From NCBI GenBank assembly GCA_009996515.1, contig JAACZV010000010.1:62001-126000 (forward strand): a stretch of DNA of 64,000 nt, given 5' to 3'. Below, piece by piece: positions 8,753 through 59,557 of this stretch. Position 1 is the stretch's first letter; each line of letters opens with the position of its first letter. Source of the DNA: Comamonadaceae bacterium (GTDB taxonomy: Bacteria > Pseudomonadota > Gammaproteobacteria > Burkholderiales > Burkholderiaceae_C). Below the pieces are notes generated by a model, which was not told the origin of the DNA, did not search any database, and saw nothing but the letters and a program-made list of their open reading frames with translations. The translations under genes were made by a program, and so were the position numbers.

Positions 8753-8767
8753 CAGCCCGTCCGGCCT

Positions 8768-10438: not shown

Positions 10439-10452
10439 GCGCGAGGGGGCTG

Positions 10453-10484
10453 AAAAAAAGCCGCCCGGCGGGCAGCCGGGCGGC
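10453..10484 (-). terminator. Intrinsic terminator of the POT transporter gene
   Basis: On the minus strand a perfect 10 bp GC stem (10475-10484 with 10460-10469, five-base loop) is followed by seven T residues (10459-10453). It lies 74 bp beyond the transporter stop and almost touches the next minus-strand gene. Confidence 0.82.
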
Positions 10485-10557
10485 ATCGTAGGGCGCGACG
10501 GGCGCGCGGCATGACGGGCGGCACGGGTAATTTCACCCATGCCGCGGCCGTCGGGCG

Positions 10558-12108: not shown

Positions 12109-12124
12109 GGCGGCCTCGATGAAG

Positions 12125-12163
12125 CTCAAAAGCAAACGCCGCCCGGCTTGTGGCCGAGCGGCG
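12125..12163 (-). terminator. Terminator of rne
   Basis: On the minus strand an 11-pair stem with one mismatch (12153-12163 with 12137-12147) is followed by GTTTGCTTTTG. The T-run is interrupted, so strength is moderate. It sits 23 bp past the rne stop and 17 bp before the transporter ATG. Confidence 0.65.
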
Positions 12164-12185
12164 CTCTAGGGATCAACCCTGAAGG

Positions 12186-37302: not shown

Positions 37303-37317
37303 TTTCGGGGCCCAGCG

Positions 37318-38748: not shown

Positions 38749-38752
38749 GCCG

Positions 38753-39634
38753 ATGAACGCCGCAACCCCTGGAGCCTTCGTGAACGCCCCCGCAGACCTG
38801 CATGACCGCCCCATCGGCGACCTGATCCGCGATGCGCGCAACCTGAGCGCGGCCGAAGTCGAGCAGGTGTTGCGCTATCAGCGCGAGCATGGCGTGCGCT
38901 TCGGCGAAGCCGCCATCACCCTCGGGCTGGCCAGCCCCGATGACGTGCTCCATGCGCTGGCCCAGCAGTTCCACTATCCGCTGGGCGATGCCGAGCGGCG
39001 TCTGTCCAGCCCCGAGCTGGTGGCGCTGTCGCAGCCGTTTTCGCTGCAGGCCGAAGCCATACGCGCCGTGCGCAGCCAGGTGACGATGCGCCTGGGCCGG
39101 CCCGACGCGCAGCGCCAGGCCCTGGCCGTCATCAGCCCCGCCAGCGGCGACGGCAAGACCTACCTCGCCGCCAACCTCGCGGTCTCGCTGGCCCAGCTGG
39201 GCGGCCGCACGCTGCTCATCGACGCCGACCTGCGCAACCCGCGCCAGCACGAGGTGTTCAAGGTCAGCAACGCGGCGGGCCTGTCCTCGCTGCTGTCCGG
39301 CCGCTCGGAGAGCCAGGTCATCCAGGCCGTCGAGGGCGTGCCGGGCCTGTTCGTGCTGCCCTGCGGTCCCATGCCGCCCAATCCGCTGGAGCTCGTCGAG
39401 CGCCCGGCCTTCGGGCTGCTCCTGCGCGAGCTGAGCGGCAAGTTCGACCACGTGGTCATCGACACGGCCGCGGCCGCATTGGGCGCCGATGCCTGCGTGG
39501 TGGCGAGCACTTGCGGCGCGGCGCTGGTGTTGACGCGCAAGCATGAGAACAAGGTGGCGGCGCTGCAGGACCTGGTCGCCAGCCTGACGGGCAGTTCCGT
39601 GCAGCTGCTGGGCGCCATCCTCAACGAGTTCTGA
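38753..39634 (+). CDS. epsG: EpsG, BY-kinase-like ATPase with N-terminal MshEN-like motif pair
   Basis: 293 residues, with the CpsD/CapB-type P-loop NTPase of polysaccharide chain-length control. Walker A is SPASGDGKTYLAANLA, Walker A' LLIDADLRNPRQHE, Walker B HVVIDTAAA. The usual C-terminal tyrosine cluster is absent (the protein ends GAILNEF), so autophosphorylation by the classical route is doubtful. Residues 20-43 and 49-72 form two 24-residue repeats. The second, RFGEAAITLGLASPDDVLHA followed by LAQQ, fits the MshEN cyclic-di-GMP motif well; the first lacks the leading Arg and the Gly. Partner of EpsF. Nucleotide binding is seen; cyclic-di-GMP binding is inference. Confidence 0.88.
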   Translation: MNAATPGAFVNAPADLHDRPIGDLIRDARNLSAAEVEQVLRYQREHGVRFGEAAITLGLASPDDVLHALAQQFHYPLGDAERRLSSPELVALSQPFSLQAEAIRAVRSQVTMRLGRPDAQRQALAVISPASGDGKTYLAANLAVSLAQLGGRTLLIDADLRNPRQHEVFKVSNAAGLSSLLSGRSESQVIQAVEGVPGLFVLPCGPMPPNPLELVERPAFGLLLRELSGKFDHVVIDTAAAALGADACVVASTCGAALVLTRKHENKVAALQDLVASLTGSSVQLLGAILNEF

Positions 39635-39651
39635 GCGCGGGCGGTTGCGTG

Positions 39652-40539
39652 ATGCCTGCGACTGTTCCCCAGGCCGGCCGCCAGGCCCTGCTGCCCGCCA
39701 ACGTCGACGTGCCGGCGCTGCTGCTGGTGCTGGCCGGCCTGCTGGTTGTCTACCTGCCTGAATACATCGAGCTCTCGCAGACTCTCTGGCGCACCGACGA
39801 GCAGGGCCATGGCCCCATCATCTTCGCGGTCAGCCTGTGGCTGCTGTTCGCCCAGCGCCACCGCCTGGCCGAGCTGCCGCCGCGGCCGGGGACGGCCAGC
39901 GGCCTGCTGGTGCTGGGGCTCGGCGCGCTGCTCTACGCCTTCGGGCGCTCGCAGGACATCATCATCTTCGCGGTCGGATCCCAGGTCTGGGTGCTGGCCG
40001 GCCTGGCCCTGCTCTTCAAGGGCTGGCGGGCCTTGCGGCTGATCTGGTTCCCGCTGTTCTTCCTGCTCTTCATGGTGCCGTTGCCCGAGGCCCTGGTCTC
40101 GGCCGTCACGGCGCCGCTGAAGTCGGCCGTGTCCCTGGTGGCCAGCAATCTGCTGTACGCCGCGGGCTACCCGGTCGGGCGGTCCGGCGTCATGCTGACC
40201 GTGGGCCAGTACCAGCTCATGGTGGCCGATGCCTGCGCCGGCCTGAACTCCATGTTCACGCTGGAGGCGCTGGGCATGCTGTACATGAACCTGATGCGCT
40301 ACACCTCCGTGGCGCGCAACCTGACGCTGGCCGTCATGCTGGTGCCCATCGCCTTCTGCGCCAACATCGGTCGCGTGATGATCCTCGTGCTCGTCACCTA
40401 CTACTACGGCGACGCGGCCGGCCAGGGCTTTGTGCATGGCTTCGCGGGCATGGTGCTGTTCATGATCGCGCTGATGCTGATGCTGGTCGTCGACAAGGGG
40501 CTCAACCTCTTCTTCAGGACCGAGCGGGGGGCGGCATGA
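39652..40539 (+). CDS. xrtB: Exosortase B (XrtB)
   Basis: Membrane transpeptidase-like protease of the exosortase/archaeosortase family, thought to cleave the PEP-CTERM tail of exported proteins and attach them to the cell surface or EPS. 295 residues from the ATG at 39652 (a GTG at 39649 is directly in front). About eight membrane helices. The catalytic triad is visible: Cys195 in VADACAGLNSMF, Arg241 in CANIGRVMIL and His262 in GFVHGFAGMV. B-type exosortases sit in this epsE-F-G-xrtB-epsI order. No PEP-CTERM substrate is present in the window. Confidence 0.95.
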   Translation: MPATVPQAGRQALLPANVDVPALLLVLAGLLVVYLPEYIELSQTLWRTDEQGHGPIIFAVSLWLLFAQRHRLAELPPRPGTASGLLVLGLGALLYAFGRSQDIIIFAVGSQVWVLAGLALLFKGWRALRLIWFPLFFLLFMVPLPEALVSAVTAPLKSAVSLVASNLLYAAGYPVGRSGVMLTVGQYQLMVADACAGLNSMFTLEALGMLYMNLMRYTSVARNLTLAVMLVPIAFCANIGRVMILVLVTYYYGDAAGQGFVHGFAGMVLFMIALMLMLVVDKGLNLFFRTERGAA

Positions 40540-41240
40540 GCCGACGGCCGATGTCCGTGCGCTGGCGGGCCGCATGCGTGGCGCTGCTGCTGGTCTCGGC
40601 CTCGGGCTTCGGCCATGTGATGCGCCCGACCGTGCATCTGGCCGATCAGCGTGCCAAGGTCGACCTGGAGACGCTGTTCCCCGCCAGCTTCGGCGCCTGG
40701 CGCATCGACACCCAGGTGCCGGTGACCATCATCTCGCCCGACGTCGAGGCCAAGCTGAAGTCCATCTATGCGCAGACGCTGACCCGCACCTACATCGGGC
40801 CCGCCGGCGAGCGCATCATGCTGTCGGTGGCCTATGGCGGCGACCAGTCCGACGCGACGCGCGCGCACCGGCCCGACGTCTGCTACCCCGCGCAGGGCTT
40901 CGAGATCCTGTCCAACCAGAACGCCGTCGTCGACCTCGGCGGCGAGCTGCGGCTGCCGGTGCGGCACATGGCGTCCAAGCTGGCCCAGCGCCATGAGCCG
41001 GTGACGTTCTGGTTCGTCGTCGGCGAGCATGTCGCCGTCAGCGGGCAGCAGCAGAAGATCGCCCAGCTGCGCTACGGCGTGCAGGGGCTGATCCCGGACG
41101 GCATGCTGGTGCGCGTCTCGAGCATAGACCGCGACACCGAGGCCGCCTACCGCGTGCAGGCCCGCTTCGTCGGCGACCTGCATGCCGCCATGTCCCGGCC
41201 CGCCAGGGCCCGGGTCTTCGGCAGCGCACTCGCGGGGTAG
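40536..41240 (+). CDS. epsI: EpsI, exosortase-associated protein (B type)
   Basis: 234-residue protein with one N-terminal membrane anchor or uncleaved signal (about 8-25) and a periplasmic EpsI domain. Diagnostic parts are FPASFGAWRID near 50, the tyrosine and the cysteine in THRPDVCYPAQGFEI-type context (here RAHRPDVCYPAQGFEI), and VTFWFVVGEHVAVSG. In other organisms EpsI is fused to exosortase A; here it is separate and coupled to xrtB by ATGA. Its biochemical role is unknown but it is required with the exosortase for EPS production in related systems. Confidence 0.92.
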   Translation: MSRRPMSVRWRAACVALLLVSASGFGHVMRPTVHLADQRAKVDLETLFPASFGAWRIDTQVPVTIISPDVEAKLKSIYAQTLTRTYIGPAGERIMLSVAYGGDQSDATRAHRPDVCYPAQGFEILSNQNAVVDLGGELRLPVRHMASKLAQRHEPVTFWFVVGEHVAVSGQQQKIAQLRYGVQGLIPDGMLVRVSSIDRDTEAAYRVQARFVGDLHAAMSRPARARVFGSALAG

Positions 41241-42818: not shown

Positions 42819-44319
42819 GTTCTCGCGGCGCGCGACCCTCTCCAATGCGCGCTGGTTTCTGGCCGGCAAGCTGGTTTCGGCGCTGGCCACGGTGTTGTGG
42901 CTGGCGCTGGTCACCCGCAGCCTGCTGGCGCAAGAGGGGCTGGCCGGCTATCTGGCGGCCATCGCCTATCTCGAAACCGCGCTGGCGCTGAGCCTGTTCG
43001 GGCTGGACTGGCTGCTCATCCGCCACCTGCCCGCGGCCGCCGCCGCCGGCGATGCCGCGGGGCTGCGCCGGCTGCTCCGTGGCGCGCTGCTGGCGCGGGC
43101 CGGGCTGCTGCTGGGCTTGGGGCTGTTGCTGGGCCTGGCCGCGGCCCTGTGGCCCAGGCCCGCCGCGCTCGCGGGCCTGAACCTGCCGCTGCTGGGGCTG
43201 TTGATGCTGTCCGAGGGGCTGCTGCGCCTGCTGCGCGACAACACGCTGGAGAGCCTGGCGGCGCAGCGCTACACGCAGTTGGGCGTGCTGGGCCGCACGC
43301 TGCTGGCGCTGGCCGGCCTGGGGGCGGCAGGCGCACTCGGGTGGCCGGTGGATGCCAACGCGCTGCTGGCCATGGAGGCGCTGGCGTCGCTGACCCTGCT
43401 GGGCGTCGTGGGGTATTGGGTGCGCGGCCTGCTGCCGCCCGCCGGCCCCGTGGCGCGGCCGCCTGCCGGGCCGGCCACGCCGCGCTTCCTGGACGCCTGG
43501 CGCAGCTGCTGGCCCAACTACGCCGCGGCCCTCATCAGCCTGCCGCTGGCGCCCCAGTCCCTGCTGCTGGCCCTGAGCTATCTGGTGTCGGCCGCAACGC
43601 TGGCGCCGCTGGGCCTGGCGCTGCGGGTGTTCGAGATCCTGCGCAGCTATGTGCCGGGGCTGCTGCTGATGAACGTGCTGCGTCCGCGGCTGATCGGGGG
43701 CCACGCCGTGCATGGCGACTATGGGCGCACGGCCGCCGAGGCCGGCCTGATCAGCCGCTGGAGCGCGATCAGCGTCGCGCCGCTGGTGGGCTGGCTGGGC
43801 TTGTACGGCGATGCGGCGCTGGCGGCATTTGCCGGCCATGCGCTGCCGGCCGGGCTGGGGCTGATGCTGGCCAGCATGGCCGCGACGCTGCTGCCGCGCG
43901 TGCACCGCCAGATCGGCCAGGTGCTGGTCAACATCGTGTCCGCGCAAGGCCTGCTGGCCCGGCTGGCGCTGCTGGGCCTGCTGGGGTGGCCGCTGGCCGT
44001 CTGGCTGGCTCGCCAAGGGCATGCCCATTGGGCGCTGCCCGTGGCGCTGGCATGGGACGAATGCGCCTGGATCTGGGGGCTGTCCGTGGGCATGCGCCGG
44101 CGCGGTTCGGGCTGGAGCAGCCAGCTGGGCTTTATGTTGGGCCTGCTGTTGCTCGCCGTGGCGGCCGCGCTTTGCGTCGGCATGCTGCCGCTGCCTGCCA
44201 CGCCTTGGGGGGGGCTGGCCGGTACGGTGCTGCTGCTGGCCTTGATGGGCGGCGTGCTGGCGATCTGCGGGCAACTGGACTGGCGCCGCGCGGCGAGGTC
44301 GCTGCGCTGGGGGGACTGA
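42802..44319 (+). CDS. Wzx-like polysaccharide flippase (MATE/MOP superfamily)
   Basis: 505 residues with 12 to 14 predicted helices and very high Leu/Ala content. It starts at the GTG at 42802 (VSLRDRFSRRATL), inside the end of the preceding gene. The N-terminal amphipathic stretch LSNARWFLAGKLVSALATVL and the short loop ARQGH-type regions fit Polysacc_synt/MOP exporters, which flip lipid-linked oligosaccharide repeats across the inner membrane. The assignment rests on topology, position next to the Wzy-like gene and weak motif similarity. It is separated from the next glycosyltransferase by two bases. Confidence 0.72.
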   Translation: MSLRDRFSRRATLSNARWFLAGKLVSALATVLWLALVTRSLLAQEGLAGYLAAIAYLETALALSLFGLDWLLIRHLPAAAAAGDAAGLRRLLRGALLARAGLLLGLGLLLGLAAALWPRPAALAGLNLPLLGLLMLSEGLLRLLRDNTLESLAAQRYTQLGVLGRTLLALAGLGAAGALGWPVDANALLAMEALASLTLLGVVGYWVRGLLPPAGPVARPPAGPATPRFLDAWRSCWPNYAAALISLPLAPQSLLLALSYLVSAATLAPLGLALRVFEILRSYVPGLLLMNVLRPRLIGGHAVHGDYGRTAAEAGLISRWSAISVAPLVGWLGLYGDAALAAFAGHALPAGLGLMLASMAATLLPRVHRQIGQVLVNIVSAQGLLARLALLGLLGWPLAVWLARQGHAHWALPVALAWDECAWIWGLSVGMRRRGSGWSSQLGFMLGLLLLAVAAALCVGMLPLPATPWGGLAGTVLLLALMGGVLAICGQLDWRRAARSLRWGD

Positions 44320-44321
44320 AG

Positions 44322-45545
44322 TTGCGACTGCTGTTCCTGATGCGCGACACGCTGCCGCCGTTCCGCCCCGACGTGGCGGTGCTCTTCGGCCGGGAGTTGC
44401 CGTCCTGCGGCGTGCAAAGCGATCTGCTGGGCCAGGGCGACGGCGGGGCGATGGCGCCCTGGGCTGCCGGCCGGGCCTGGGTGCATGGCCGGCCTCGCCC
44501 CGGGCTGGTCGGCGAGATGCTGCGCCCGTTGCGCGATCTGGCGATGCTGCGGCGTCTGGGCCCTGAGCATGCGCTGGTGCAGGTGCGCGACAAGATCCGC
44601 ACCGGCTGGCTGGCCAGCGTGATCTGCCGGCTGCGCGGCAAGCCTTTCGTCTATTGGATGTCCTTCCCCATGGCCGAGGGCTTCGCCGTGCGTGCCGAGC
44701 AATTGCGCGGCAGCGCGCCGCCGTTGTGGCTGCTGCTGCATCGCCTGAAGGCGCGGGTGGCCTTGTGGCTGTTCTACCGCCATGTCACGCCGCATGCCCG
44801 GCACATCTTCGTGCAGAGCGAGGCCATGCTGGAGCACATGGTCGCCCGTGGCGTGCCCAGGCAGCGCATGAGCGCCGTGCCCATGGGCGTGGATGCGGCG
44901 CAGCTGGCCGCCGTGCGGCCGCTGGACGAGCGACCAGCGCGCTGGGCCGGCCGGCGCATCGTGGCCTATCTGGGCGCCCTGGCGCGCGCACGCGATCCCG
45001 AGTTCCTGTTGCACAGCCTGCGTCGGCTGCGCGAGCAGGAGCCCGCCGCGCTGCTGCTGCTGATTGGCGATGCACCCAGCGAGGACGAGCGCCGCTGGGT
45101 GCGCGCCCGCATCGCCGCCAGCGGCCTGGCCGAGCATGTGCATCTGACGGGCTGGCTGCCGCAGGCCGAAGCGCTGCGCTGGCTGGCCTGCGCCGAACTG
45201 GCCTGGTCGCCGGTGCCGCGCGGGCCGCTGTACGACGTGTCCTCGCCGACCAAGGTCGTGGAGTACCTGGCCCTGGGCCTGCCCTGCGTCGCCAACGACA
45301 TCCCCGACCAGCAGCTGGTGCTGGCGCAGAGCGGGGGCGGGTTTTGCGTGGCCATGGAGGTCGAGGCCTTCGCGCATGCGAGCATGCGGCTGCTGAGCGA
45401 CCCCGCCGCCGCCCGCAAGATGGGGAGTGCCGGGCAGGCCTGGGTTGGTCGGCACCGGGACTACAGCGTGCTGGCCCGGGAGGTCGCGGCGGTGTACCAA
45501 CGCCTGTGCCCTTCCGCGAGCCCGCAGCAGGAGCAGATGAAATGA
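44322..45545 (+). CDS. Glycosyltransferase, GT4-like (GT-B fold)
   Basis: 407 residues. TTG start at 44322 gives KLRLL-type first strand (MRLLFLMRD); the alternative ATG at 44340 would remove it. N-terminal Rossmann-like domain, then the donor-binding domain from about 205, with RIVAYLGALARARDPEFLLHSL (shown as RIVAYLGALA and RDPEFLLHSL), LLIGDAPSEDE, VHLTGWLPQAEALRWL and SPTKVVEYLALGLPCVAND. The last motif replaces the usual EX7E with PTKVVEYLALG, common in GT4. It transfers a sugar from a nucleotide donor to the lipid-linked repeat on the cytoplasmic side; the specificity is unknown. Overlaps the next gene by four bases. Confidence 0.88.
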   Translation: MRLLFLMRDTLPPFRPDVAVLFGRELPSCGVQSDLLGQGDGGAMAPWAAGRAWVHGRPRPGLVGEMLRPLRDLAMLRRLGPEHALVQVRDKIRTGWLASVICRLRGKPFVYWMSFPMAEGFAVRAEQLRGSAPPLWLLLHRLKARVALWLFYRHVTPHARHIFVQSEAMLEHMVARGVPRQRMSAVPMGVDAAQLAAVRPLDERPARWAGRRIVAYLGALARARDPEFLLHSLRRLREQEPAALLLLIGDAPSEDERRWVRARIAASGLAEHVHLTGWLPQAEALRWLACAELAWSPVPRGPLYDVSSPTKVVEYLALGLPCVANDIPDQQLVLAQSGGGFCVAMEVEAFAHASMRLLSDPAAARKMGSAGQAWVGRHRDYSVLAREVAAVYQRLCPSASPQQEQMK

Positions 45546-46636
45546 GGGTGTTGATCGTGGGCGCCGGCAATGCGGGCTGCGCGCATGCGGCGGTCTTCTC
45601 GGCCCGTGGGCACGAGGTGGCGCTGCTGAAGACCTCGCGGGCCTTGCACGACGAGAACTTCGAACTCGTGCTGGCCCGCCAGGGCATGGACTGGATGGAC
45701 GGGCCGGGCAAGGCCCTGGCGCCGCGCTTCCAGCCGCTGGCGCTGGCGACCCGCGACTTGGACGCCGCGCTGGCCTTCGAGCCGCAGATCGTGTTCGTGA
45801 CCGTGCGCTCCACGCAGCAGCAGGCCGTGGCCCAGCGCATCGCGCCGCGGCTGCGTGCCGGCCAGCTGCTCATCACCAGCCCCGGCTACATGGGCAGCGC
45901 CTATTTCCGCAAGCATCTGCGCGACCCTGGCGTGCTGCTGGCCGAGGGCGAGAGCCTGCCGTTCGACGCCCGCATCATCGAGCCGGGCTGCGTGCAGCTG
46001 CTGTGGGAGAACACGCGCAACGCGCTGGCCTTCCTGCCGCGCTCGCGCTCGCAGGAGGGCCTGGCGCTGGCCCGTCAGCTGACGCCGCGTTACGTGGCCA
46101 CGCGCAGCAACGTCGTGGAGTCGGCGCTGCACAACCCCAACCTCATCGTGCACACGGTGGGCACGCTGCTGTCGGCCAGCCGCATCGAGCATGCGGGCGG
46201 CGAGTTCTGGATGTACCGCGAGGCCTTCACGCCCGGCACGCTGCGCCTGCTGGACAAGCTGGACGCCGAGAAGATGGCCATCCTGCAGGCCTGCGGGGCC
46301 AGGCCCGAGCCCTGCCTGGAGTCCTTCAAGTTCCGCAACGAGGCGGACCTGTCCATGCCCGCCATCGAGGTGTTGCGCAAGTACGCCCGCGAGGGCGGGC
46401 CCAAGGGGCCGGCGGACCTGCAGACCCGCTACATCACCGAGGACGTGCCCATGGGCCTGGGCCTGATGGCCAGCCTGGGCGAACGCCTGGGGCTGGCCAC
46501 GCCGATGACGCACGCGCTGATCGAGATCGCGTCCGGCCTGCTGGGCCGCGACTTCGCGGCCGAGAGCCGCACGCTGGACGACCTCGGCTTTGCGGGCCTG
46601 GACGGCCCCGGCTTCGTTGCCGCGGTGAACGCCTGA
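45542..46636 (+). CDS. NAD(P)-dependent opine/octopine dehydrogenase family protein
   Basis: 364 residues. The Rossmann motif VGAGNAGCAHA is at residues 6-16. The C-terminal octopine-dehydrogenase domain has HNPNLIVHTVGTLL with a conserved His204, then FWMYREAFTP and LDAEKMAILQACG. Family members reductively condense an amino acid with a 2-oxoacid such as pyruvate to give N-(1-carboxyalkyl) amino acids. In a polysaccharide operon the product could be an opine-type decoration of the sugar chain. This is inference; a related sugar- or ketopantoate-like reduction cannot be excluded. It is coupled to the preceding glycosyltransferase and to the CapK-like gene that follows (TGATG). Confidence 0.85.
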   Translation: MRVLIVGAGNAGCAHAAVFSARGHEVALLKTSRALHDENFELVLARQGMDWMDGPGKALAPRFQPLALATRDLDAALAFEPQIVFVTVRSTQQQAVAQRIAPRLRAGQLLITSPGYMGSAYFRKHLRDPGVLLAEGESLPFDARIIEPGCVQLLWENTRNALAFLPRSRSQEGLALARQLTPRYVATRSNVVESALHNPNLIVHTVGTLLSASRIEHAGGEFWMYREAFTPGTLRLLDKLDAEKMAILQACGARPEPCLESFKFRNEADLSMPAIEVLRKYAREGGPKGPADLQTRYITEDVPMGLGLMASLGERLGLATPMTHALIEIASGLLGRDFAAESRTLDDLGFAGLDGPGFVAAVNA

Positions 46637-47964
46637 TGGCCTGGCCCGAAGCCTTCGAGAAGGCCTATCTGCGCTGGCGCCGCTTCGTCCCGGGGCGGCT
46701 GCTTTACCACCCCCGGCATTTCGAGATCCTGGCCCTGCAGCGGCGCTTCGCCGCGCAGCCGCAGCAGCGCGCGGCCTGGGTGGATGCTCAGTTGCGCGGA
46801 CTGCTGAGCAGCGCGCTGCGCCATGTTCCGCACTACCGCGACACGGTCAGCATCGCCGCCGCCGAGCTGGCGCGGGCGCCGGCGCTGGAGCTGCTGCAGC
46901 GCTTCCCGGTGCTGGAGAAGGCCGAGGTGATGGCGGCGCAGCACCGCTTCCTGGATGAACGCTTCAAGAGCCCGCTGATGCACTACGCCACCAGCGGCGG
47001 CTCCAGCGGCGAGGGCATAGGCCTGTGGCGCAACAAGCGCCTGGCCGACATCGAGCGCGCCTTCTTCACCCATCACTGGGCGCCGGCGGGCTTCAGCTTC
47101 GACAAGGCCAGGCTGCTGCGCATCGGTGCCGACGCCCGCGCGCAGGCGCATGAGCCGCCCTGCCGCGTGGTGGGCAACCGGCTGATGCTGTCGCCCTATC
47201 ACGTCAATGAGCGGCACCGCGATGCCATCGTGGCGGCGCTGCGCGCGTTCCGGCCGCAATGCATCCACGCCTATCCCAGCCTGGCCGCGGCGCTGGCCGA
47301 GCTGCTGCAGGGCCAGCGGCGCGAGGACTGCGGGCTGGACGCGCTGCGCGGCGTGGCGCTGGCGTCGGAGCCGGCCACCGCGGCCCAGCTGGCCACCACG
47401 CATGCGGTGTTCGGCGTGCCCATCATCGTCAACTACGGCCTGACAGAGCGCACCAACATCGCCTTCGCGCGCTACGAGCCGGGGCAGCCGCTGCGCTACC
47501 GCTTCGATGCCTTGTACGGCATCAGCGAGAACCGCGACTGGCAGGGCCAGCCCGAGATCGTCGGCACCTCGCTGTGGAACGACGTGATGCCGCTGATCCG
47601 CTACGCCACGCGGGACTTCGGCCGCATCGACGCGCAAGGCGTCTGCGAGCGGCTGGAGGGGCGGGCCCAGGAGTTCCTGGTGGACCGCCAGGGCGCGAAG
47701 CTGCCGGGCCTGGCCATCGTCATCGACGAGCTGACCTGGGACTTCGTGCGCCTGTACCAGGTGCAGCAGGAGCGGCCGGGTGCCATCCGCATCGCCGTGG
47801 TGCCGCGCGAGGCGCCGCTCAGCGAGGCGCAGCGCGCCTTCGTGCTGGACGCCCAGCTCAGGCGCTGGGGCAGCTTCTTCGACGTGGAACTCGTGGAGGT
47901 GGACGACATCCCGCCGGCCCCCAACGGCAAGCGCCAGCTGGTCGTGAGCCGGGTGCCCGCATGA
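46636..47964 (+). CDS. PaaK/CapK-like adenylate-forming protein 1
   Basis: 442-residue member of the phenylacetate-CoA-ligase/CapK group. An AMP-binding phosphate loop is visible, HYATSGGSSGEGIGLWRN. VNYGLTERTNIAF occupies the place of the A5 motif, and YATRDFGRIDAQG is A7-like. The C-terminal lobe is short (NGKRQLVVSR). Proteins of this kind occur in many capsule and EPS loci (CapK) with undefined roles. They could activate a carboxylic acid as acyl-AMP for transfer to a sugar amine or to a carrier. Direct coupling to the opine-dehydrogenase-like gene suggests that its product is the acid activated; this is inference. Confidence 0.82.
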   Translation: MAWPEAFEKAYLRWRRFVPGRLLYHPRHFEILALQRRFAAQPQQRAAWVDAQLRGLLSSALRHVPHYRDTVSIAAAELARAPALELLQRFPVLEKAEVMAAQHRFLDERFKSPLMHYATSGGSSGEGIGLWRNKRLADIERAFFTHHWAPAGFSFDKARLLRIGADARAQAHEPPCRVVGNRLMLSPYHVNERHRDAIVAALRAFRPQCIHAYPSLAAALAELLQGQRREDCGLDALRGVALASEPATAAQLATTHAVFGVPIIVNYGLTERTNIAFARYEPGQPLRYRFDALYGISENRDWQGQPEIVGTSLWNDVMPLIRYATRDFGRIDAQGVCERLEGRAQEFLVDRQGAKLPGLAIVIDELTWDFVRLYQVQQERPGAIRIAVVPREAPLSEAQRAFVLDAQLRRWGSFFDVELVEVDDIPPAPNGKRQLVVSRVPA

Positions 47965-49022
47965 GCGGTCGGCGTCCCTGGATGGTGGGCACCGACCCGG
48001 CCGGCCAGGGCGGCATCGCCGCCGTGGTCGGCGTCTATGCGCAGCAGGGCTGGCTGGCCCGCCAGCGCGTGCGCTACCTGGTCAGCCACCGGGCCGGCTC
48101 GGTGCTGGGCCGGGTGCTGCTGTTCCCCTGGGCGCTGGCGCAGCTGCTGGCGGCCCTGCTCGCCGGCCGCGTCAGCCTGCTGCACGCCCATGTGGCCAGT
48201 TATGGCAGCTTCGCGCGCAAGTCGCTGTTGCTGGCGCTGGCGCGGGGTTTCGGCGTGCCCACCGTCTTCCATCTGCACGGCGGCCACTTCCAGAAGTTCT
48301 ACGCCGCCTCGCCGGCCTGGCGCCAGCGCTGGATACGGCACACGCTGCGCCGCAGCAACCGGGTGCTGGCCTTGTCCGAGGCCTGGCGCGAGGCCCTGCT
48401 GTCCATCGTGCCCGAGGCACGCGTGTCGGTGCTGGCCAACCCGGTGGCCTTTCCGCCGCCGGCGCCCGAGCGGCCGGCGGTGCCGGGGCGTGTGCTGTTC
48501 CTGGGCCGGGCCGACCGAAGCAAGGGCGTGTTTGATCTGCTGACCGCGCTGGGCCAGGCGCGGGCGCAGCTGCCGCGGCTGCATCTGCATGTGGGCGGCG
48601 ATGGCGACCTGGAGGCCGTGCGGGCGGCCGTCGCCCGCGAGGGCCTGGATGCTGCCGTCACGCTGCTGGGCTGGGTGCGCGGCGCGGCCAAGGAGCGCGA
48701 GCTGGCCGAGGCCGAGATCTTCGTGCTGCCCTCCTACGACGAGGGTCTGCCCATGGCCATGCTGGAGGCCATGGCCCGCGGCAAGGCGGTGCTGGCCACG
48801 CCGGTGGGCGGCATCCCGCAGGCCTTGCGCGACGGCGTGGACGGCTTGCTGGTGGCGCCGGGCCAGCCGCCGCGGCTGGCCGAGGCGCTGCTGCGCCTGG
48901 GCGGTGATGCGCCCCTGCGCGCCGCGCTGGGCGCCAGCGCCATCGAACGCGTGCGCGCCGGCTACGCCACCGACACGGTGCTGGCCGAGCTGGACCGCAT
49001 CTACAGCGAGGTGTTGCGATGA
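47961..49022 (+). CDS. Glycosyltransferase family 4
   Basis: 353-residue GT-B enzyme. N-terminal part has LLHAHVASYGSFARKSLLLALARGFGVPTVFHLHGG (shown here as LLHAHVASYGSF and VPTVFHLHGG), a usual GT4 acceptor region. The donor-binding domain begins about residue 175, with LFLGRADRSKGVFDLLTAL, LHVGGDGDLEAV, VTLLGWV and the EX7E motif in LPSYDEGLPMAMLEAMARGK. This is a retaining glycosyltransferase (for example mannosyl or galactosyl), acting on the lipid-linked repeat. Donor not predictable. ATGA overlaps at both ends. Confidence 0.92.
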   Translation: MSGRRPWMVGTDPAGQGGIAAVVGVYAQQGWLARQRVRYLVSHRAGSVLGRVLLFPWALAQLLAALLAGRVSLLHAHVASYGSFARKSLLLALARGFGVPTVFHLHGGHFQKFYAASPAWRQRWIRHTLRRSNRVLALSEAWREALLSIVPEARVSVLANPVAFPPPAPERPAVPGRVLFLGRADRSKGVFDLLTALGQARAQLPRLHLHVGGDGDLEAVRAAVAREGLDAAVTLLGWVRGAAKERELAEAEIFVLPSYDEGLPMAMLEAMARGKAVLATPVGGIPQALRDGVDGLLVAPGQPPRLAEALLRLGGDAPLRAALGASAIERVRAGYATDTVLAELDRIYSEVLR

Positions 49023-50965
49023 GCAGCAGCCAGGAGGCCCGGGGCCGCTGGCGCTGGCTGTGGAACCGGCTGCGCTGCATGACGCCGGCGGAGGTGTTGC
49101 ACCGCGCCGCACGCGCCGCAACGGCGGCCCGGCGCCAGCGCTTGATGGCCCAGCCGGTGCCGGCGCCCGTGCTGGCCGAGGCGCCACGCTGGGTGCAGTT
49201 GCCGACGCCCGCGCAACTGCTGGCGGGCACGGCACCCTACCTGGAGGAGGCGAGGGCGCTGCACGCCGGCCGGGTGCGGCTGTTCGAGCGCGAGCGCTTC
49301 GACGTGGGCGCCGAGCCCGACTGGCTGCGCTGCCCGCTCACCGGCGTGACGGCACCGCTGAAGCCCGCGCGGCGCATCGCCATCACCGACCGCGCCCAGG
49401 TCGGCGACATCAAATACCTGTGGGAGCTGAACCGCCATCTGCACTGGGTGACGCTGGCCCAGGCCTGGGCGCTGGACGGCGACGCCGCCCACCTGGACCT
49501 GCTGCGCCGCCAGCTGGCCGGCTGGCTGAAGCAGAACCCGCCCGGGCAGGGGCCCAACTACACCAGCAGCCTGGAGGCGGCCATCCGCCTCGTCAACTGG
49601 TCGGTCAGCTGGCAGCTGCTGGGCGGGGCGAACGGCCCGATCTGGCGCGGCCATGAGGCGCTGCGCGGCGCCTGGCTGGACGCCGTCTACCGCCACGCCG
49701 GGCAGGTGGCGCGCGCCTACTCCCGCCATTCCTCGGCCAACAACCACCTGATCGGCGAGCTCTGCGGCGTCTATGTCGCCAGCCGCACCTGGCCGGCCTG
49801 GCCGCAGCTGGCCCGGCTGGGCGATGCTGCGCGGGCCGAGCTGATCCAGCAGATCGAGCGCCAGGTGCATGCCGACGGCGTGCCGGCCGAGCAGGCCTTC
49901 GAGTACGCCGGCTTCATCTTCGACTTCCTGTGGTTGGCCGAGCGCTGCGCCGCGGCCAACGCCGAGCCCATGCCCGAGGCCTACCTGGCCCGGCTGCGCG
50001 CGATGGCCGACTTCGCGCATGCGCTGGGCGGCGCGACCGGCGCCATGCCCGCCGTGGGCGACGCCGACGGCGCCGAGGCCTTGCGGCTGGACCCGCGGCC
50101 GGGCCGCGAGCCGCTGGCCGCGCTGCTGGAGAAGGAGGCGGCGCTGGGCGGCCGCGCCGTGCCGCCCTGGCTGCGGCCGCGCGACGACATCGCCTGGCTG
50201 GGGCTGGCCCGGCCGCCGGTGGCGGCGCGCGCGCCGGCCACGCTGGACTTCGACGCCGGCGGCTATCTGCTGTTCGAGGGCGGGCCGCTGCAGGGCGGCA
50301 TGGACGTGGGACCGCTGGGCTATCTGGGCATCGCCGCGCATGGCCACGCGGACGCGCTGCAGCTGTGGCTCAGCGTGCAGGGCCAGCCGCTGCTCATCGA
50401 CCCCGGCACCTATGCCTACTGGGCCGACAAGGCCTGGCGCGACTACTTCCGCGGCACCTCGGCGCACAACACGCTGGAGCTGCTGGGGCGCGACCAGAGC
50501 GACAGCGGCGGGCGCTTCATGTGGACCCGCCATGCCCGGGCCAGGCTGCTGCGGCGCGAGCGCACCGGCCCGGGGCGGCTGAGCGTGGCGGCCGAGCACG
50601 ACGGCTATGGTGCGGCGCTGCGCCACCGGCGCGAGCTGCTGGCGGACTGTGAGGCGGGCCGGCTGGAGGTGCTGGACACGCTGCCGCGGCCGGCCCCGGC
50701 GGCGCTGCACTGGCACCTGGCCCCGGGCTGGCGGTGCGAGCTGCTGGGCGACGGCTTGCTGGCCCGCCGCGGCCGCTGGCAGGCCCGGCTGCGCGTGCAG
50801 GCCGACGCCCCGGGCGAGCTCGCGCTGCTGCAGGGCCAGCTCGAGCCACCGCTGGGCTGGGCCTCCGGTGCCTATGGCGACAAGCAGCCCAGCCCCGTGC
50901 TGCGCTGGCGCGGCCAGGCCAGCCGCTGGCGCACCGTCATCGACATCGAATCCATTGCCACATGA
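49019..50965 (+). CDS. Heparinase II/III family protein, no signal peptide
   Basis: 648 residues: an alpha-helical toroid domain (about 80-330, with NRHLHWVTLAQAWALDG and SSANNHLIGELCGVYVA) and the C-terminal beta-sandwich heparinase II/III domain (from about 405), with GYLGIAAHGHADALQLWLS, IDPGTYAYW and RGTSAHNTLEL. These histidines and tyrosines match polysaccharide-lyase family PL12/15-like sites. No export signal is seen, which is usual for this class in EPS operons. It might cleave or epimerise uronate-containing precursors, or be exported by an unknown route. Substrate unknown. Coupled to both neighbours by ATGA overlaps. Confidence 0.88.
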   Translation: MSSSQEARGRWRWLWNRLRCMTPAEVLHRAARAATAARRQRLMAQPVPAPVLAEAPRWVQLPTPAQLLAGTAPYLEEARALHAGRVRLFERERFDVGAEPDWLRCPLTGVTAPLKPARRIAITDRAQVGDIKYLWELNRHLHWVTLAQAWALDGDAAHLDLLRRQLAGWLKQNPPGQGPNYTSSLEAAIRLVNWSVSWQLLGGANGPIWRGHEALRGAWLDAVYRHAGQVARAYSRHSSANNHLIGELCGVYVASRTWPAWPQLARLGDAARAELIQQIERQVHADGVPAEQAFEYAGFIFDFLWLAERCAAANAEPMPEAYLARLRAMADFAHALGGATGAMPAVGDADGAEALRLDPRPGREPLAALLEKEAALGGRAVPPWLRPRDDIAWLGLARPPVAARAPATLDFDAGGYLLFEGGPLQGGMDVGPLGYLGIAAHGHADALQLWLSVQGQPLLIDPGTYAYWADKAWRDYFRGTSAHNTLELLGRDQSDSGGRFMWTRHARARLLRRERTGPGRLSVAAEHDGYGAALRHRRELLADCEAGRLEVLDTLPRPAPAALHWHLAPGWRCELLGDGLLARRGRWQARLRVQADAPGELALLQGQLEPPLGWASGAYGDKQPSPVLRWRGQASRWRTVIDIESIAT

Positions 50966-51714
50966 CCGCCAACCGCATCCAGCTCATGGGCTGCCACGTC
51001 GACAACCTCAGCATGGAGGAGACGCTGCAGGTCATCGACGGCTTCATCCGCAGCGGCCGGCCGCATCAGCATGTGGTCGTCAACGTCGACAAGATCGTCA
51101 AGGCCCAGCACGACGAGGAGCTGCGCCGCATCATCAACGACTGCGCCCTGATCAACGCCGACGGCATGCCGGTGGTGTGGGCCTCGCGCTGGCTGGGCAA
51201 GCCGCTGAAGGAGCGGGTGGCCGGCGTGGACTTGTTCGAGGCCTTGATGGGGCGCGCGGCGCAGACCGGCTGGCGCGTCTACCTGCTGGGCGCGCGCGAC
51301 GAGGTGGTGCAGGGCGTCAAACGCCTGTACGAGCGCAAATACCCGGGCCTGACGGTGGCCGGCGCGCGCGACGGCTACTGGCCGGCCGGCGAGGACGAGG
51401 CCGTCGCCCAGCAGATCGCGGCGGCGCGGCCCGACATCCTGTTCGTCGCCATCAGTTCGCCCAGGAAGGAACAGTTCCTGGGCCGCTACCAGGCCATGAT
51501 GAAAGTGCCGTTCGCGATGGGCGTGGGCGGCACGTTCGACGTGGCGGTGGGCCGCGTGAAGCGCGCGCCGGTCTGGATGCAGCGCAGCGGCCTGGAGTGG
51601 TTCTACCGCTTTCTGCAGGAGCCGCGGCGCATGTTCCGGCGCTACTTCATCGAGGACATGGCCTTTCTGGGGCTGTTGTGGCGCGAGTGGCGCGGGACAG
51701 CGCGCCGCAAGTAA
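50962..51714 (+). CDS. WecG/TagA/CpsF-family glycosyltransferase
   Basis: 250-residue GT26 enzyme. NVDKIVKAQHDEELRRII and LINADGMPVVWASRWLG carry the conserved Asp and the donor-binding loop; GVDLFEALM, FVAISSPRKEQFL and MGVGGTFDVAVGRVKRAP follow in the usual order. The C-terminal WFYRFLQEPRRMFRRY is the membrane-association appendage. Family members add ManNAc or ManNAcA to a lipid-linked GlcNAc, which fits wecB at 55836-56942 that would supply UDP-ManNAc. ATGA overlap with the heparinase gene; a 48 bp gap precedes the last operon gene. Confidence 0.94.
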   Translation: MTANRIQLMGCHVDNLSMEETLQVIDGFIRSGRPHQHVVVNVDKIVKAQHDEELRRIINDCALINADGMPVVWASRWLGKPLKERVAGVDLFEALMGRAAQTGWRVYLLGARDEVVQGVKRLYERKYPGLTVAGARDGYWPAGEDEAVAQQIAAARPDILFVAISSPRKEQFLGRYQAMMKVPFAMGVGGTFDVAVGRVKRAPVWMQRSGLEWFYRFLQEPRRMFRRYFIEDMAFLGLLWREWRGTARRK

Positions 51715-51762
51715 ATGGTCATGTGAACCAACAAGAATCGCGGCTCAACAGCGGGAGGAGCG

Positions 51763-53145
51763 TTGTATACCAGTCGCATCTACGGGGCCAGCCCGCCATG
51801 GGCGCAGTCCTGGCTGCTGAGCGGGCGGGCCTGGATCAGGGGCATGCTGCGCGAAGGCCGGGGCCTGCGCGACGAGTTGCAAGACCTGGCGCGCACGGAG
51901 CGGCTGGATGCAGGGCAACTGCAGGCCTTGCAGCTGGCCCGCCTGCGCGAGCGGCTGGTGCAGGCCGGTCGCGAAGTGCCTTTCTATCGGGCGCTGTTTG
52001 CCCGCCTGGGCTTCGATCCGCGTGATTTCAACTCGCTGGACCAACTGGCCTGCCTGCCCATCCTGGAGAAGGCGCAGGTGCAGGCCGCCGGCGCGGCCTT
52101 GTGCTCCGACGCCCGCATCGGCCCGCGCTTTCGCAGCACCAGCAGCGGCACCACCGGCAGCCATCTGCAAGGCTGGCGCGACCTGCGCTCCATCGTGCGC
52201 GAGAACGCCTTCATCTGGCGCCAGCTGCAATGGGCGGGCGTGCGCCCCGGCGACCGGCGGGCCTGGCTGCGCGGGGACAAGATCGTGCCGGCCGCGCAGC
52301 AGCAGGGCGAGTTCTGGCGCCTGAACCGGGCCGACCGGCTGCTGATGCTGTCCAGCTACCACCTGACGCCGGCGCGCGTGGGCGCCTATGTCGAGGCGCT
52401 GGAGCGCTTCGACCCGGTGGCCATCCAGGCCTATCCGTCGGCGCTGGTCTTCATTGCGGCGGTGCTGGATGCGCACGGCCGCCGCTTCGGCCAGGGCAGC
52501 GCCAGCCCGCGGCGGCTGCGGGCCATCGTGACCTCGTCGGAGACCCTGCTGCCGGCCCAGCGCCAGCTGCTGGAGCGCGTGTTCGGCTGCCGCGTGTTCG
52601 ACTGGTACGGAGCCTTCGAGCGCGTGGCGGCCATAGGCACCTGCGAAGAGGGCAACTACCACCTGCTCAGCGACTACGGCTACGCGGAATGGCAGGGGGC
52701 CGAGGGCGGGCAGGACTTGATAGGCACCGGCTTCGACAACCGGGCCATGCCGCTGCTGCGCTACCGCCTCAACGACCGGGTGCTGATGGAGCCCGGCGGC
52801 GTGGGCTGCCCCTGCGGCCGCGCCTTCCCGCGCGTGCGCGCGGTGCTGGGCCGCGGCCAGGACGTGCTGTACGGCGTGGACGGCCATCGCGTCTTCATGC
52901 CCGCCAATGTGTTTGACGACCTGCCGGGCCTGGTGGCCGGCCAGTGGCGCCAGCACAGGCCCGGCCATGCCGAGCTGCTGCTGCAGTTCCAGCAGGGCCG
53001 GGGCATGGCGGAGGCCGATGTGGAGGCGGTGGCGCGGCGCTACACGGGGGAGGCCATAGACCTCGAGATCCGCAGAGTGGACCGCATCGAACGCACGGCG
53101 GCCGGCAAGCTGCCGGCGGTCGTGCACGAGTTCGCCGCTGCCTGA
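51763..53145 (+). CDS. PaaK/CapK-like adenylate-forming protein 2
   Basis: 460 residues. TTG start at 51763, with GGGAGGAG ending only two bases before it; no in-frame ATG keeps the N-terminus (YTSRIYGASPPW). AMP-binding loop FRSTSSGTTGSHLQGW. IVTSSETLLPAQRQLLE and FDWYGAFERVAAIGTCEEG are typical of PaaK/CapK; LRYRLNDRVLMEPGG and CPCGRAFPRV follow, the latter with a Cys-x-Cys as in PaaK-like folds. It is clearly related to but diverged from the copy at 46636-47964. Last gene of the operon, ending 21 bp before the convergent lipoprotein gene. Its acid substrate is unknown. Confidence 0.82.
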   Translation: MYTSRIYGASPPWAQSWLLSGRAWIRGMLREGRGLRDELQDLARTERLDAGQLQALQLARLRERLVQAGREVPFYRALFARLGFDPRDFNSLDQLACLPILEKAQVQAAGAALCSDARIGPRFRSTSSGTTGSHLQGWRDLRSIVRENAFIWRQLQWAGVRPGDRRAWLRGDKIVPAAQQQGEFWRLNRADRLLMLSSYHLTPARVGAYVEALERFDPVAIQAYPSALVFIAAVLDAHGRRFGQGSASPRRLRAIVTSSETLLPAQRQLLERVFGCRVFDWYGAFERVAAIGTCEEGNYHLLSDYGYAEWQGAEGGQDLIGTGFDNRAMPLLRYRLNDRVLMEPGGVGCPCGRAFPRVRAVLGRGQDVLYGVDGHRVFMPANVFDDLPGLVAGQWRQHRPGHAELLLQFQQGRGMAEADVEAVARRYTGEAIDLEIRRVDRIERTAAGKLPAVVHEFAAA

Positions 53146-53166
53146 GCGGGCTGTGGCGCCGCTGCC

Positions 53167-56942: not shown

Positions 56943-57086
56943 GAGCAGGGACCGACTCGGAGGTGCGCGGGATTCTAGGACCGGGGGTCGCGGCGTCCCC
57001 GCCCCGCCGGGCCGGGGCGGGTTGGAAGCTGAGCCAAAATACCGGCCGCCACAGCCTTGTCTCTCTTATCTCCCCGGGTGGATCGC

Positions 57087-58094
57087 GTGAAAATTCTTGT
57101 TACCGGCGCCGCCGGCTTCATCGGCATGCATGTCAGTCAGATCCTGCTGGCGCGCGGCGACCAGGTGGTGGGTCTGGACAACCTGAACGACTACTACAGC
57201 GTCCAGCTCAAGCACGACCGCCTGGCACGCCTGACGGACAAGCCCGGCTTCAGCTTCGTGAAGATGGACGTGGCCGACCGCGAGGGCATGGCCAGGCTGT
57301 TCGCCGAACAGCGCTTCGACCGCGTCGTGCACCTGGCCGCCCAGGCCGGCGTGCGTTATTCCATCGAGAACCCGCACGCCTACATCGACAGCAACATCGT
57401 CGGCTTCACCAACATCCTGGAGGGCTGCCGCCACCACGGCGTGCAGCACCTGGCCTATGCGTCCAGTTCCAGCGTCTACGGCGGCAACACGCTGATGCCG
57501 TTCTCCGAGCATCACAGCGTCGACCACCCCATCAGCCTCTACGCCGCGACCAAGAAGGCCAACGAGCTGATGGCCCACACCTATTCGCACCTGTTCGGCC
57601 TGCCGACCACGGGCCTGCGCTTCTTCACGGTCTACGGCCCCTGGGGCCGGCCGGACATGGCGCTGTTCCTGTTCACCAAGGCCATCATCGAAGGGCGACC
57701 CATCAACGTGTTCAACCACGGCAAGATGATCCGCGACTTCACCTACATCGACGACATCGCCGAGGGTGTCGTGCGCGTGCTGGACCGCACCGCCACGGCC
57801 GACCCCGCCTACGACCCGGCCCGGGCCGACCCCGCCCGCTCGAGCGCGCCCTACCGGGTCTTCAACATCGGCAACCACGACCCCATCGAGCTGATGAGCT
57901 TCATCGAGGCCATCGAGCAGGCGGTGGGCCGCGAGGCGGTGAAGAACTTCATGCCCATGCAGGACGGCGACGTGCCGGCCACCCATGCCGACGTGGAGGA
58001 GCTGGCCGCCTGGACGGATTTCCGCCCCGCCATGCCGGTGCCCGAAGGCATCGGGCGCTTCGTGGCCTGGTACCGCGACTACTACAAGGTCTGA
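57087..58094 (+). CDS. NAD-dependent sugar epimerase, UDP-glucuronate 4-epimerase type
   Basis: 335 residues from the GTG at 57087 ([15 protein letters not shown]); a TTG at 57057 is in frame but adds an unlikely leader. SDR fold with GAAGFIG, then [10 protein letters not shown] and the Y152-x-x-x-K156 catalytic pair. [21 protein letters not shown] is characteristic of UDP-glucuronate 4-epimerases (WbnF/Cap1J/GAE), which make UDP-galacturonate. Ugd, 137 bp downstream, makes the substrate UDP-GlcA, which supports the call. A GDP-mannose or UDP-glucose epimerase function is less likely. Followed by a terminator. Confidence 0.9.
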
Positions 58095-58231: not shown

Positions 58232-59557
58232 ATGAAAGTCACCGCCATCGGCACCGGATACGTCGGCCTGGTCACCGGCGCCTGCCTGGCCGAGATGGGC
58301 AACCACGTCGTCTGCCTGGACGTGGATGCCGGGAAGATCCGCATGCTGAACGAGGGCGAGATCCCCATCCACGAGCCCGGCCTGGAGGCGGTGGTGCGCC
58401 GCAACGCCGCGGCCGGCCGGCTGCAGTTCACGACGGACGCGGACCAGGCCGTGCAGCACGGCACGCTGCTGTTCGTCGGCGTGGGCACGCCGCCCGACGA
58501 GGACGGCTCGGCGGACCTGAAATACGTCATCGCGGCGGCCCGCGCCATCGGCCGGCGCATGACGGACTACAAGGTCATCGTCGACAAGAGCACGGTGCCC
58601 GTGGGCACGGCCGATCGGGTGCGCGCGGCGATCCGGCAGGAGCTGGATGCGCGCGGCCGCGGCGACATGCCGTTCGCGGTGGTGTCCAACCCGGAATTCC
58701 TGAAGGAGGGCGCCGCGGTCGAGGACTTCATGAAGCCGGACCGCATCATCGTCGGCTCCGACGACGAGCAGGCCACGCTGCTGATGCGCGCCCTCTACGC
58801 GCCGTTCAACCGCACGCAGGACCGCATGCTGGTCATGGACCTGCGCAGCGCCGAGTTCACGAAATACGCCGCCAACGCGATGCTGGCCACCCGCATCAGT
58901 TTCATGAACGAGCTGGCCCTGCTGGCGGAGAAGGTGGGCGCGGACATCGAGCTGGTGCGCCGCGGCATCGGCTCCGACCCGCGCATCGGCTACCAGTTCC
59001 TGTACGCCGGCGCGGGCTATGGCGGCTCCTGCTTCCCCAAGGACGTCAAGGCGCTGGTGAAGACGGCCGCGGACCTGGGGCTGCCGCTGCAGCTGCTGAC
59101 GGCCGTGGAAGCCGCCAACGAGCGTCAGAAGCGCGTGCTGGTGGACAAGGTGGTGGCGCGCTTCGGCGAGGACTTGAGGGGGCGTCGCTTCGCCCTCTGG
59201 GGCCTGGCCTTCAAGCCCGACACCGACGACATGCGCGAGGCGCCGTCCCTGGTCGTGCTGGAGGAACTGACCCGGCGCGGCGCGACGGTGCTGGCCTACG
59301 ACCCCGTGGCCATGCCGGAGGCGGCGCGCGTGCTGGGGCCGCGCGACGACGTGCGGCTGGTCCGGCGCGCCGTGGACGCGCTGGAGGGGGCCGACGCGCT
59401 GCTGGTCGTGACGGAGTGGAAGGAGTTCCGCACGCCGGACTTCGATGCGATCAAGGCGGCCATGCCGCGGCCCCTCATCCTGGACGGCCGCAACCTCTAC
59501 GACCCCGAGCTGATGCGGGCGCTGGGCATCGCCTACAGCGGCATAGGCCGCGGCTGA
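58232..59557 (+). CDS. ugd: UDP-glucose 6-dehydrogenase
   Basis: Two-step NAD-dependent oxidation of UDP-glucose to UDP-glucuronate. 441 residues. N-terminal Rossmann motif [17 protein letters not shown], then [12 protein letters not shown] and [14 protein letters not shown]; the catalytic nucleophile is Cys267 in [33 protein letters not shown] lies in the C-terminal domain. It supplies UDP-GlcA for the neighbouring 4-epimerase and the EPS. It starts from the ATG at 58232 after a terminator, so it is a separate transcript, convergent with the rfb operon (15 bp apart). Confidence 0.97.

Follow-up and report, generated by a model that had tools for sequence, protein, structure and literature searches.

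In a 64,000-nucleotide stretch of the genome of a Comamonadaceae bacterium (assembly GCA_009996515.1, contig JAACZV010000010.1, positions 62,001 to 126,000; hereafter the window, in whose own numbering its positions are given), an exosortase-linked exopolysaccharide (EPS) operon carries a gene of the octopine-dehydrogenase family, here called ODH, followed directly by a gene for a PaaK/CapK-type ligase, CapK1. The two genes are a conserved pair, and on balance we somewhat favour the view that they form a supply and activation unit which decorates the polysaccharide linked to the exosortase XrtB with an opine, by way of CapK1. The identities of the genes, the predicted fold, the catalytic residues, the pairing, the position in the operon and the pattern of empty slots in related operons were established directly; the reaction, the amino acid, the carboxylate that is activated and the product on the polymer we infer.

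In the proposed scheme, ODH would condense the amino group of an amino acid reductively with a 2-oxo acid, for which pyruvate is our default guess, to yield an opine of the N-(1-carboxyalkyl) amino acid type. In the next step CapK1 would form an acyl adenylate and drive the joining of this opine to one of the repeat-unit sugars through an amide bond or, less likely, an ester, and the pair would stand in place of the usual CapK that relatives have in this operon. A preliminary description of this DNA had proposed such a dedicated dehydrogenase-ligase unit for EPS decoration, with a second ligase, CapK2, as a further member. The opine-decoration idea emerges strengthened: the conserved pair, the opine-dehydrogenase fold, the empty slot, the ATP-grasp genes beside ODH elsewhere and a locus of Shewanella fidelis all speak for it; the membership of CapK2 is not supported. 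The genes on which the argument turns are as follows.

44316..45545, + strand: gtA, GT4 glycosyltransferase that borders the slot on the left, with an uncertain start codon (Pfam Glycos_transf_1; 46-50% identical in Massilia-group loci)
45542..46636, + strand: ODH, opine-dehydrogenase-type NAD(P) oxidoreductase, putative maker of an N-(1-carboxyalkyl) amino acid (Pfam, phmmer, fold, residues)
46636..47964, + strand: CapK1, PaaK/CapK-type adenylate-forming ligase (PF00501, motifs, model, pairing)
47961..49022, + strand: gtB, GT4 glycosyltransferase that borders the slot on the right (Pfam; Massilia-group orthologues)
51763..53145, + strand: CapK2, the CapK normally present in EPS operons of this type, probably outside the ODH unit (sub-threshold PaaK-like matches, orthologues)

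The dehydrogenase and its ligase partner

The open reading frame of ODH is complete and open, encodes 364 amino acids and is the single ODH match in the genome. Its assignment to the octopine-dehydrogenase family, with His204 and the Rossmann motif intact, was confirmed: the match to Octopine_DH (PF02317) scored 126.6 bits against a Pfam cut-off of 30, both the Rossmann domain and the helical Octopine_DH domain are present by Pfam and by fold, the GAGNAG motif is intact, and G7, G9, H204, R296 and D301 are invariant in all 79 aligned homologues, distant outgroup rows included. Going by octopine dehydrogenase, we take H204 to be the catalytic histidine and R296 and D301 to be substrate-binding residues. 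In a phmmer search of the PDB the top match, almost full length, was CENDH (N-(1-D-carboxyethyl)-L-norvaline dehydrogenase, 1bg6; E 1.3e-40), with octopine dehydrogenase next. The structure prediction that had been suggested as a check gave an AlphaFold2 model with a mean predicted local distance difference test (pLDDT) score of 93.3 and an opine-dehydrogenase fold, for which Foldseek ranked 1bg6 first (template-modelling (TM) scores 0.83/0.87), followed by octopine, pseudopaline, yersinopine and staphylopine dehydrogenases. H204, R296 and D301 align with the same residues of 1bg6, and R296 and D301 also with those of octopine dehydrogenase.

CapK1, of 442 amino acids, conserves the motifs TSGGSSG, YGLTER, RYATRD and NGK, which we take to be the P-loop, YG-TE, RY-T-D and C-terminal lysine adenylation motifs of the PaaK type. 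It passed the Pfam AMP-binding model (PF00501) narrowly, with 30.5 bits against 29.9, and its model (pLDDT 88.9) matched the folds of PaaK1 and PaaK2 with TM scores of about 0.5, so that its description as a PaaK/CapK adenylate-forming protein holds. All NCBIfam matches to PaaK or CoA-ligase equivalogs fell far under their cut-offs (for example 42.2 against 300), and by these profiles the CapK ligase would not be a named phenylacetate-CoA ligase. ODH is tightly embedded between its neighbours: its start overlaps the stop of gtA (ATGA) and its stop overlaps the CapK1 start by one base (TGATG). Because of these overlaps translational coupling of ODH with gtA and CapK1 is plausible; of the coupling to CapK1 described earlier, the overlap is observed and the coupling itself is no more than plausible. 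The GC content and third-position GC (GC3) of the two genes are similar to those of the neighbouring genes.

We followed the pair in 100 relatives (window genome included), in a group of 62 genomes around Massilia yuzhufengensis (hereafter the Massilia group), and in a scan of genome contigs for ODH that returned 77 loci, a ligase being counted as adjacent when it lay less than 400 bp from ODH on the same strand. Close homologues of ODH (at least 67% identity) and of CapK1 (at least 63%) occurred in the same 3 of the 100 relatives, and no other relative had either at that level. A CapK1 orthologue lies directly downstream of ODH in 20/20 Roseateles/Paucibacter and Massilia-type loci (L012-L031, among which L022 is titled Telluria, L029 Herbaspirillum and L031 Burkholderiaceae). 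In the ODH tree the dehydrogenases of these loci and of the window group into a single clade, and the pairings are therefore not independent cases. In the Massilia group ODH was present in 20 of the 62 genomes, each time with an adjoining CapK1 of 56-62% identity.

Beyond this clade the ligase changes. A ligase stands directly beside ODH in 34 of the 77 loci, and it belongs to one of four types: CapK (21 loci), RimK/LysX-like ATP-grasp (6), ATPgrasp_ST (5) and PylC-like ATP-grasp (2). With the 20 Roseateles/Massilia-type loci set aside, 14 of 57 loci have an adjacent ligase. Counted per side with room and by distance bin, ligases were found at 34/141 adjacent positions and then at 13/133, 17/126, 20/119 and 9/114; since the profiles were built from ODH neighbours, these counts test adjacency and not enrichment relative to other polysaccharide loci. 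Many of the Bacteroidales loci contain ATPgrasp_ST genes, often several to a locus, and their adjacency is weak evidence. Searched against the PDB, a seven-member profile of the RimK-like group picked up RimK at E 2.6e-11 (3vpd) and an enzyme of lysine biosynthesis at E 3.5e-9 (1uc8), which places the group among ATP-grasp proteins; the S. fidelis member on its own passed no Pfam cut-off. We tentatively entertain opine decoration of surface polysaccharides as a modular trait spread over several phyla, in which one dehydrogenase family would be combined with exchangeable ligases of unrelated families (CapK/PaaK, RimK/LysX-like, PylC-like and perhaps ATPgrasp_ST) that attach the opine, and in which the unit, in XrtB systems, would be lodged in the operon or act from another place and displace the resident CapK.

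As a separate observation, two ATP-grasp genes precede ODH in the Fibrobacter loci L048 and L051 (6400-10000); in L048 one of them is PylC-like and the other has a sub-threshold L-amino-acid-ligase C-terminal match.

CapK2 and the CapK slot

CapK2, a PaaK-like protein of 460 amino acids with a TTG start at 51763 and intact adenylation motifs, passed no Pfam model and gave only sub-threshold PaaK-like matches. It had been described as a second, diverged copy of CapK1. CapK1 and CapK2 are only 29% identical, and CapK2-type orthologues are found in 37 of the 51 XrtB-bearing Massilia-group genomes; CapK2 is therefore the usual CapK of this operon type and not a recent copy of CapK1. Its membership of the ODH unit we also reject as improbable, because no CapK2 match occurs in the 10-kb flanks of loci L013 and L014 and the CapK2 type is common in genomes without ODH.

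XrtB is present in 20/20 genomes behind L012-L031, and in the Massilia group, whose 20 ODH genomes partly overlap with these, it is present in 20/20 genomes with ODH versus 31/42 without (Fisher p 0.012). Of the XrtB genomes (51 in all), every one that lacks ODH has a CapK2-type gene, called at E below 1e-50 (31/31), as against 6/20 of those with ODH (p 3e-8, uncorrected for kinship). In one of the 31, G123, the gene is only 34% identical, and in G134, G152, G153, G162 and G163 it lies on another contig than XrtB. We then compared the operons of 24 genomes, namely 19 of the 20 with ODH and 5 of the 31 XrtB genomes without. Wherever the locus held CapK2 (11/11; 6 ODH genomes and 5 ODH-less ones), it lay between gtA and gtB, which were 1390-1475 bp apart. 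Of the 14 ODH genomes that lack CapK2, 13 were measured by tblastn (G118 was left out), and in all of these the gap was 122-387 bp, which leaves no room for a CapK. When gtA, gtB and heparinase protein sequences were concatenated for a tree, the empty slot, a state seen in ODH genomes only, required two changes. In the window and in L012, L013 and L014 the same slot holds ODH and CapK1. The simplest reading of this pattern would be that the pair replaces the resident CapK in its function, either inside the operon or from elsewhere. The co-occurrence of dehydrogenase and CapK in XrtB loci, proposed earlier as a check, thus held for the pair itself (20/20, all with XrtB) and failed for its linkage to the locus in Massilia-type genomes. 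A slot comparison inside Roseateles was uninformative, as 12 XrtB loci without ODH (of L133-L145) carry other middle genes and the thirteenth stretch is only 3.9 kb long. Those 12 keep XrtB and EpsI, give no match to gtA, heparinase or CapK and only weak ones (33% or less) to gtB and gt26, which suggests that their EPS type was probably swapped as a block.

The surrounding operon and the Shewanella fidelis locus

The remaining genes of the operon and its surroundings bear out that the pair lies in an exosortase-linked EPS operon, with XrtB, B-type EpsI and EpsD (TIGR02925, 229 bits, cut-off 108.9) all above curated cut-offs; exosortase B, B-type EpsI and EPS genes together mark it as an XrtB exopolysaccharide locus.

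35492..39634, + strand: EpsD, EpsE-like export protein, Wzz-like chain-length protein and EpsG-like tyrosine kinase
39649..40539, + strand: XrtB, exosortase B (TIGR03113, 362.3 bits, cut-off 275)
40536..41240, + strand: EpsI, B-type, ATG at 40536 (NF045609, 273.8 bits, cut-off 220)
49019..50965, + strand: heparinase II/III-type protein (PF07940, 150 bits)
50962..51714, + strand: gt26, WecG/TagA/CpsF glycosyltransferase (PF03808, 212.7 bits)
57078..58094, + strand: NAD-dependent nucleotide-sugar epimerase (PF01370, 192 bits)
58232..59557, + strand: nucleotide-sugar (UDP-glucose) dehydrogenase (TIGR03026, 447.7 bits, cut-off 189.8)

The EpsE-like and Wzz-like proteins were named by reading their sequences, and the EpsG-like kinase stayed under its cut-off (TIGR03029, 271.8 bits against 313.8). 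From gtA to gt26 neighbouring genes overlap by 1-4 bases, and CapK2 starts 48 bases further on; a scan of 45000-54000 for promoters and terminators gave nothing above chance. Convergent with the end of the operon lies another heparinase II/III-type gene (53167-55650, - strand), whose product begins like a lipoprotein and is possibly a depolymerase of the same polymer. The epimerase is presumably a UDP-glucuronate 4-epimerase.

A distant relative of ODH lies in an O-antigen-type locus (L041) of S. fidelis ATCC BAA-318, which we take to be the same type strain as KMM 3582T (the taxonomy listing gives only ATCC BAA-318). The locus holds the sole ODH match of that genome, and comprises genes for an export protein, Wzz, an initial transferase, a GT2 glycosyltransferase, the ODH homologue, an ATP-grasp protein, Wzx, further glycosyltransferases, a Wzy-like protein, RmlB, a nucleotide-sugar dehydrogenase and an epimerase; the identities were read from translations, with family searches made on ODH and the ATP-grasp protein. 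The S. fidelis homologue (46-49% identical) agrees with the dehydrogenase of the window at 65 of 92 positions in motif segments versus 101 of 268 elsewhere, a comparison biased by our own choice of the segments. As the deep branching differs between our two ODH trees, we make no claim that the two are sisters.

The O-polysaccharide of S. fidelis KMM 3582T is reported, in a structure cited in PMC11087588, to bear N-epsilon-[(S)-1-carboxyethyl]-N-alpha-(D-galacturonoyl)-L-lysine, and PMC10609480 reports the same residue, carboxyethyl-lysine in amide linkage to galacturonic acid (GalA), in the O14 antigen of Providencia rustigianii, and alanopine on Qui4N, that is, an opine carboxyl on an amino sugar, in that of P. 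alcalifaciens O35. The decoration idea is directly testable, because a distant ODH relative sits in a surface-sugar locus of S. fidelis, from which such a group has been reported. Chemical reports of carboxyethyl amino acids as part of bacterial polysaccharides go back two decades (2003, 2004, 2013; PMC10609480, PMC11087588). Our search of the literature, which covered titles and abstract openings of the matches listed, found no gene for these substituents and no opine-dehydrogenase gene described in a polysaccharide cluster. In the earlier statement that such a system had not been described, two things must be told apart: the chemistry on O-antigens is known, and a dehydrogenase-ligase gene pair devoted to it was not found in the literature searched. 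To judge by that literature, what is new is the ODH-CapK1 arrangement in an XrtB EPS operon.

Alternative explanations and known systems

Several observations weigh against a dedicated role in polysaccharide decoration. Among 129 Shewanella genomes, 16 besides S. fidelis carry a homologue of ODH that shares 42-46% identity with the S. fidelis protein, and the 10 loci examined of these 16 (L147-L156) all stand alone in varied gene contexts, with no ligase profile or other window EPS protein matched in the 17.5-kb stretches; in the ODH family tree, whose deep order is unstable, they nest inside the family. In Nitrosomonas (L044) and Phycisphaerae (L043 and L046), where ODH is paired with an ATP-grasp gene, none of the eight neighbours scanned is a polysaccharide gene: they encode a PEP-CTERM protein, an FMN reductase, a DUF1611 protein, a CAAX protease, a protein resembling alanine racemase and three proteins that gave no match. 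Given the Shewanella, Nitrosomonas and Phycisphaerae contexts, the ODH family alone is no marker of polysaccharide genes, and its presumed specificity for them appears weakened. Elsewhere ODH lies beside a DNA ligase gene (planctomycete L045) or beside MoxR-type and uracil-DNA-glycosylase genes (Lachnospiraceae L050 and L052). Altogether 43 of the 77 ODH loci have no directly adjacent ligase; several contigs are short, so that a missing ligase is often uninformative. Five CapK1-like genes (about 50-54% identical; L121-L125) occur without ODH in three Massilia-group genomes, six genomes of that group keep both ODH and CapK2, and the two slot changes are few events, which could both be losses or could be a loss plus a regain. 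Finally, none of nine other window EPS proteins was matched in the flanks of the 17 Massilia-type pairs (L015-L031), which rules out that the pair is always linked to the XrtB locus.

Two of these contexts deserve a separate remark. In the Nitrosomonas metagenome-assembled genome the ODH/ATP-grasp pair of L044 adjoins the FMN reductase, DUF1611 and alanine-racemase-like genes (7499-14273), a setting that suggests D-amino-acid or small-molecule metabolism, and in the Phycisphaerae metagenome-assembled genome of L043 the PEP-CTERM protein near the pair (7296-7976) scores 21.8 bits against a cut-off of 20.7.

Stand-alone Shewanella homologues and the unlinked pairs of Massilia-type genomes would both be expected if the pair made a small free opine conjugate (a metallophore-like compound, a signal or an osmolyte), its place in the EPS operon being one of regulatory convenience and the slot loss in the Massilia group unrelated, and the fold of ODH also matches the pseudopaline, yersinopine and staphylopine dehydrogenases. 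However, in Roseateles the pair occupies the CapK slot with overlapping genes, the scanned genes beside the window pair are EPS genes and every XrtB genome without ODH keeps CapK2 (31/31), and we hold a free product to be improbable. It is very improbable that ODH reduces a 2-oxo acid in the manner of ketopantoate reductase, with CapK1 activating the resulting hydroxy acid for acylation of a sugar: the Rossmann-domain matches to ketopantoate reductase are weak and under every cut-off, and the first such enzyme stands only at rank 11 of the fold list, whereas the C-terminal domain is Octopine_DH, well over its cut-off, CENDH is best in both fold and sequence, and H204, R296 and D301 are invariant.

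A variant of opine decoration, whose probability in our estimate overlaps with that of the form proposed here, reverses the roles: CapK1 would activate the carboxylate of a uronic acid such as GalA, and the free amine of the opine would attack it as the nucleophile. This is the direction implied by the carboxyethyl-lysine structures reported for S. fidelis and P. rustigianii (PMC11087588, PMC10609480). The nucleotide-sugar dehydrogenase and epimerase genes near ODH would fit it, as would the finding that no DegT-type aminotransferase was matched in the window and that the closest match on the contig is about 91 kb away from ODH. Counterparts of the epimerase 93-97% identical to it occur, however, in 8 of the 12 Roseateles loci without ODH, so these uronate genes lose weight as a pointer to a galacturonate acceptor, and the Massilia-group stretches examined give only distant epimerase matches (28% or less). 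The alanopine of P. alcalifaciens O35, as reported in PMC10609480, is joined in the opposite direction, and an opine with a free primary amine requires a diamine donor such as lysine. We regard this variant as rather unlikely.

If the decoration reading is correct, substituents of the opine type, which give a polymer additional carboxylates and in some cases an amine, would become predictable from sequence, and CapK in XrtB loci would acquire a testable role. The S. fidelis locus would provide a candidate gene for carboxyethyl amino acid decoration, one whose chemical product has been reported, and from the Roseateles/Massilia pair a decoration of that class would be predicted in XrtB EPS.

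Among characterised enzymes, ODH is most like CENDH in fold, in near full-length alignment and in the positions of the catalytic His, Arg and Asp, with 31% identity in the structural alignment. The segments EGES-PYDARI and GEFWMYREAFTP, common among the ODH homologues compared here, differ in CENDH, and ODH, unlike CENDH, is accompanied by a ligase gene within an EPS operon. CapK1 shares its fold and adenylation motifs with PaaK-like AMP ligases (PaaK1, PaaK2, NatL2, ClxA and AjiA1), at about 20% identity or less and TM scores of 0.45-0.58. At the level of the locus, XrtB, B-type EpsI, EpsD and CapK recall the XrtB/EpsH exopolysaccharide loci with a CapK gene that Haft et al. 2006 describe (PMC1569441). 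Massilia-group operons have that CapK in the slot between gtA and gtB, whereas in the window the slot holds ODH and CapK1, and CapK2 stands at the end of the operon. The chemistry proposed for the window is of the class reported for the O-antigens of S. fidelis, P. rustigianii O14 and P. alcalifaciens O35, and putative genes for the supply of UDP-GalA lie near its ODH, yet also in those 8 of 12 Roseateles loci without one. As in S. fidelis, the predicted dehydrogenase of the window stands beside a ligase of a putative amide-forming type within a polysaccharide locus; the ligase is an ATP-grasp protein in an O-antigen locus in S. fidelis, and a CapK in an XrtB EPS operon in the window.

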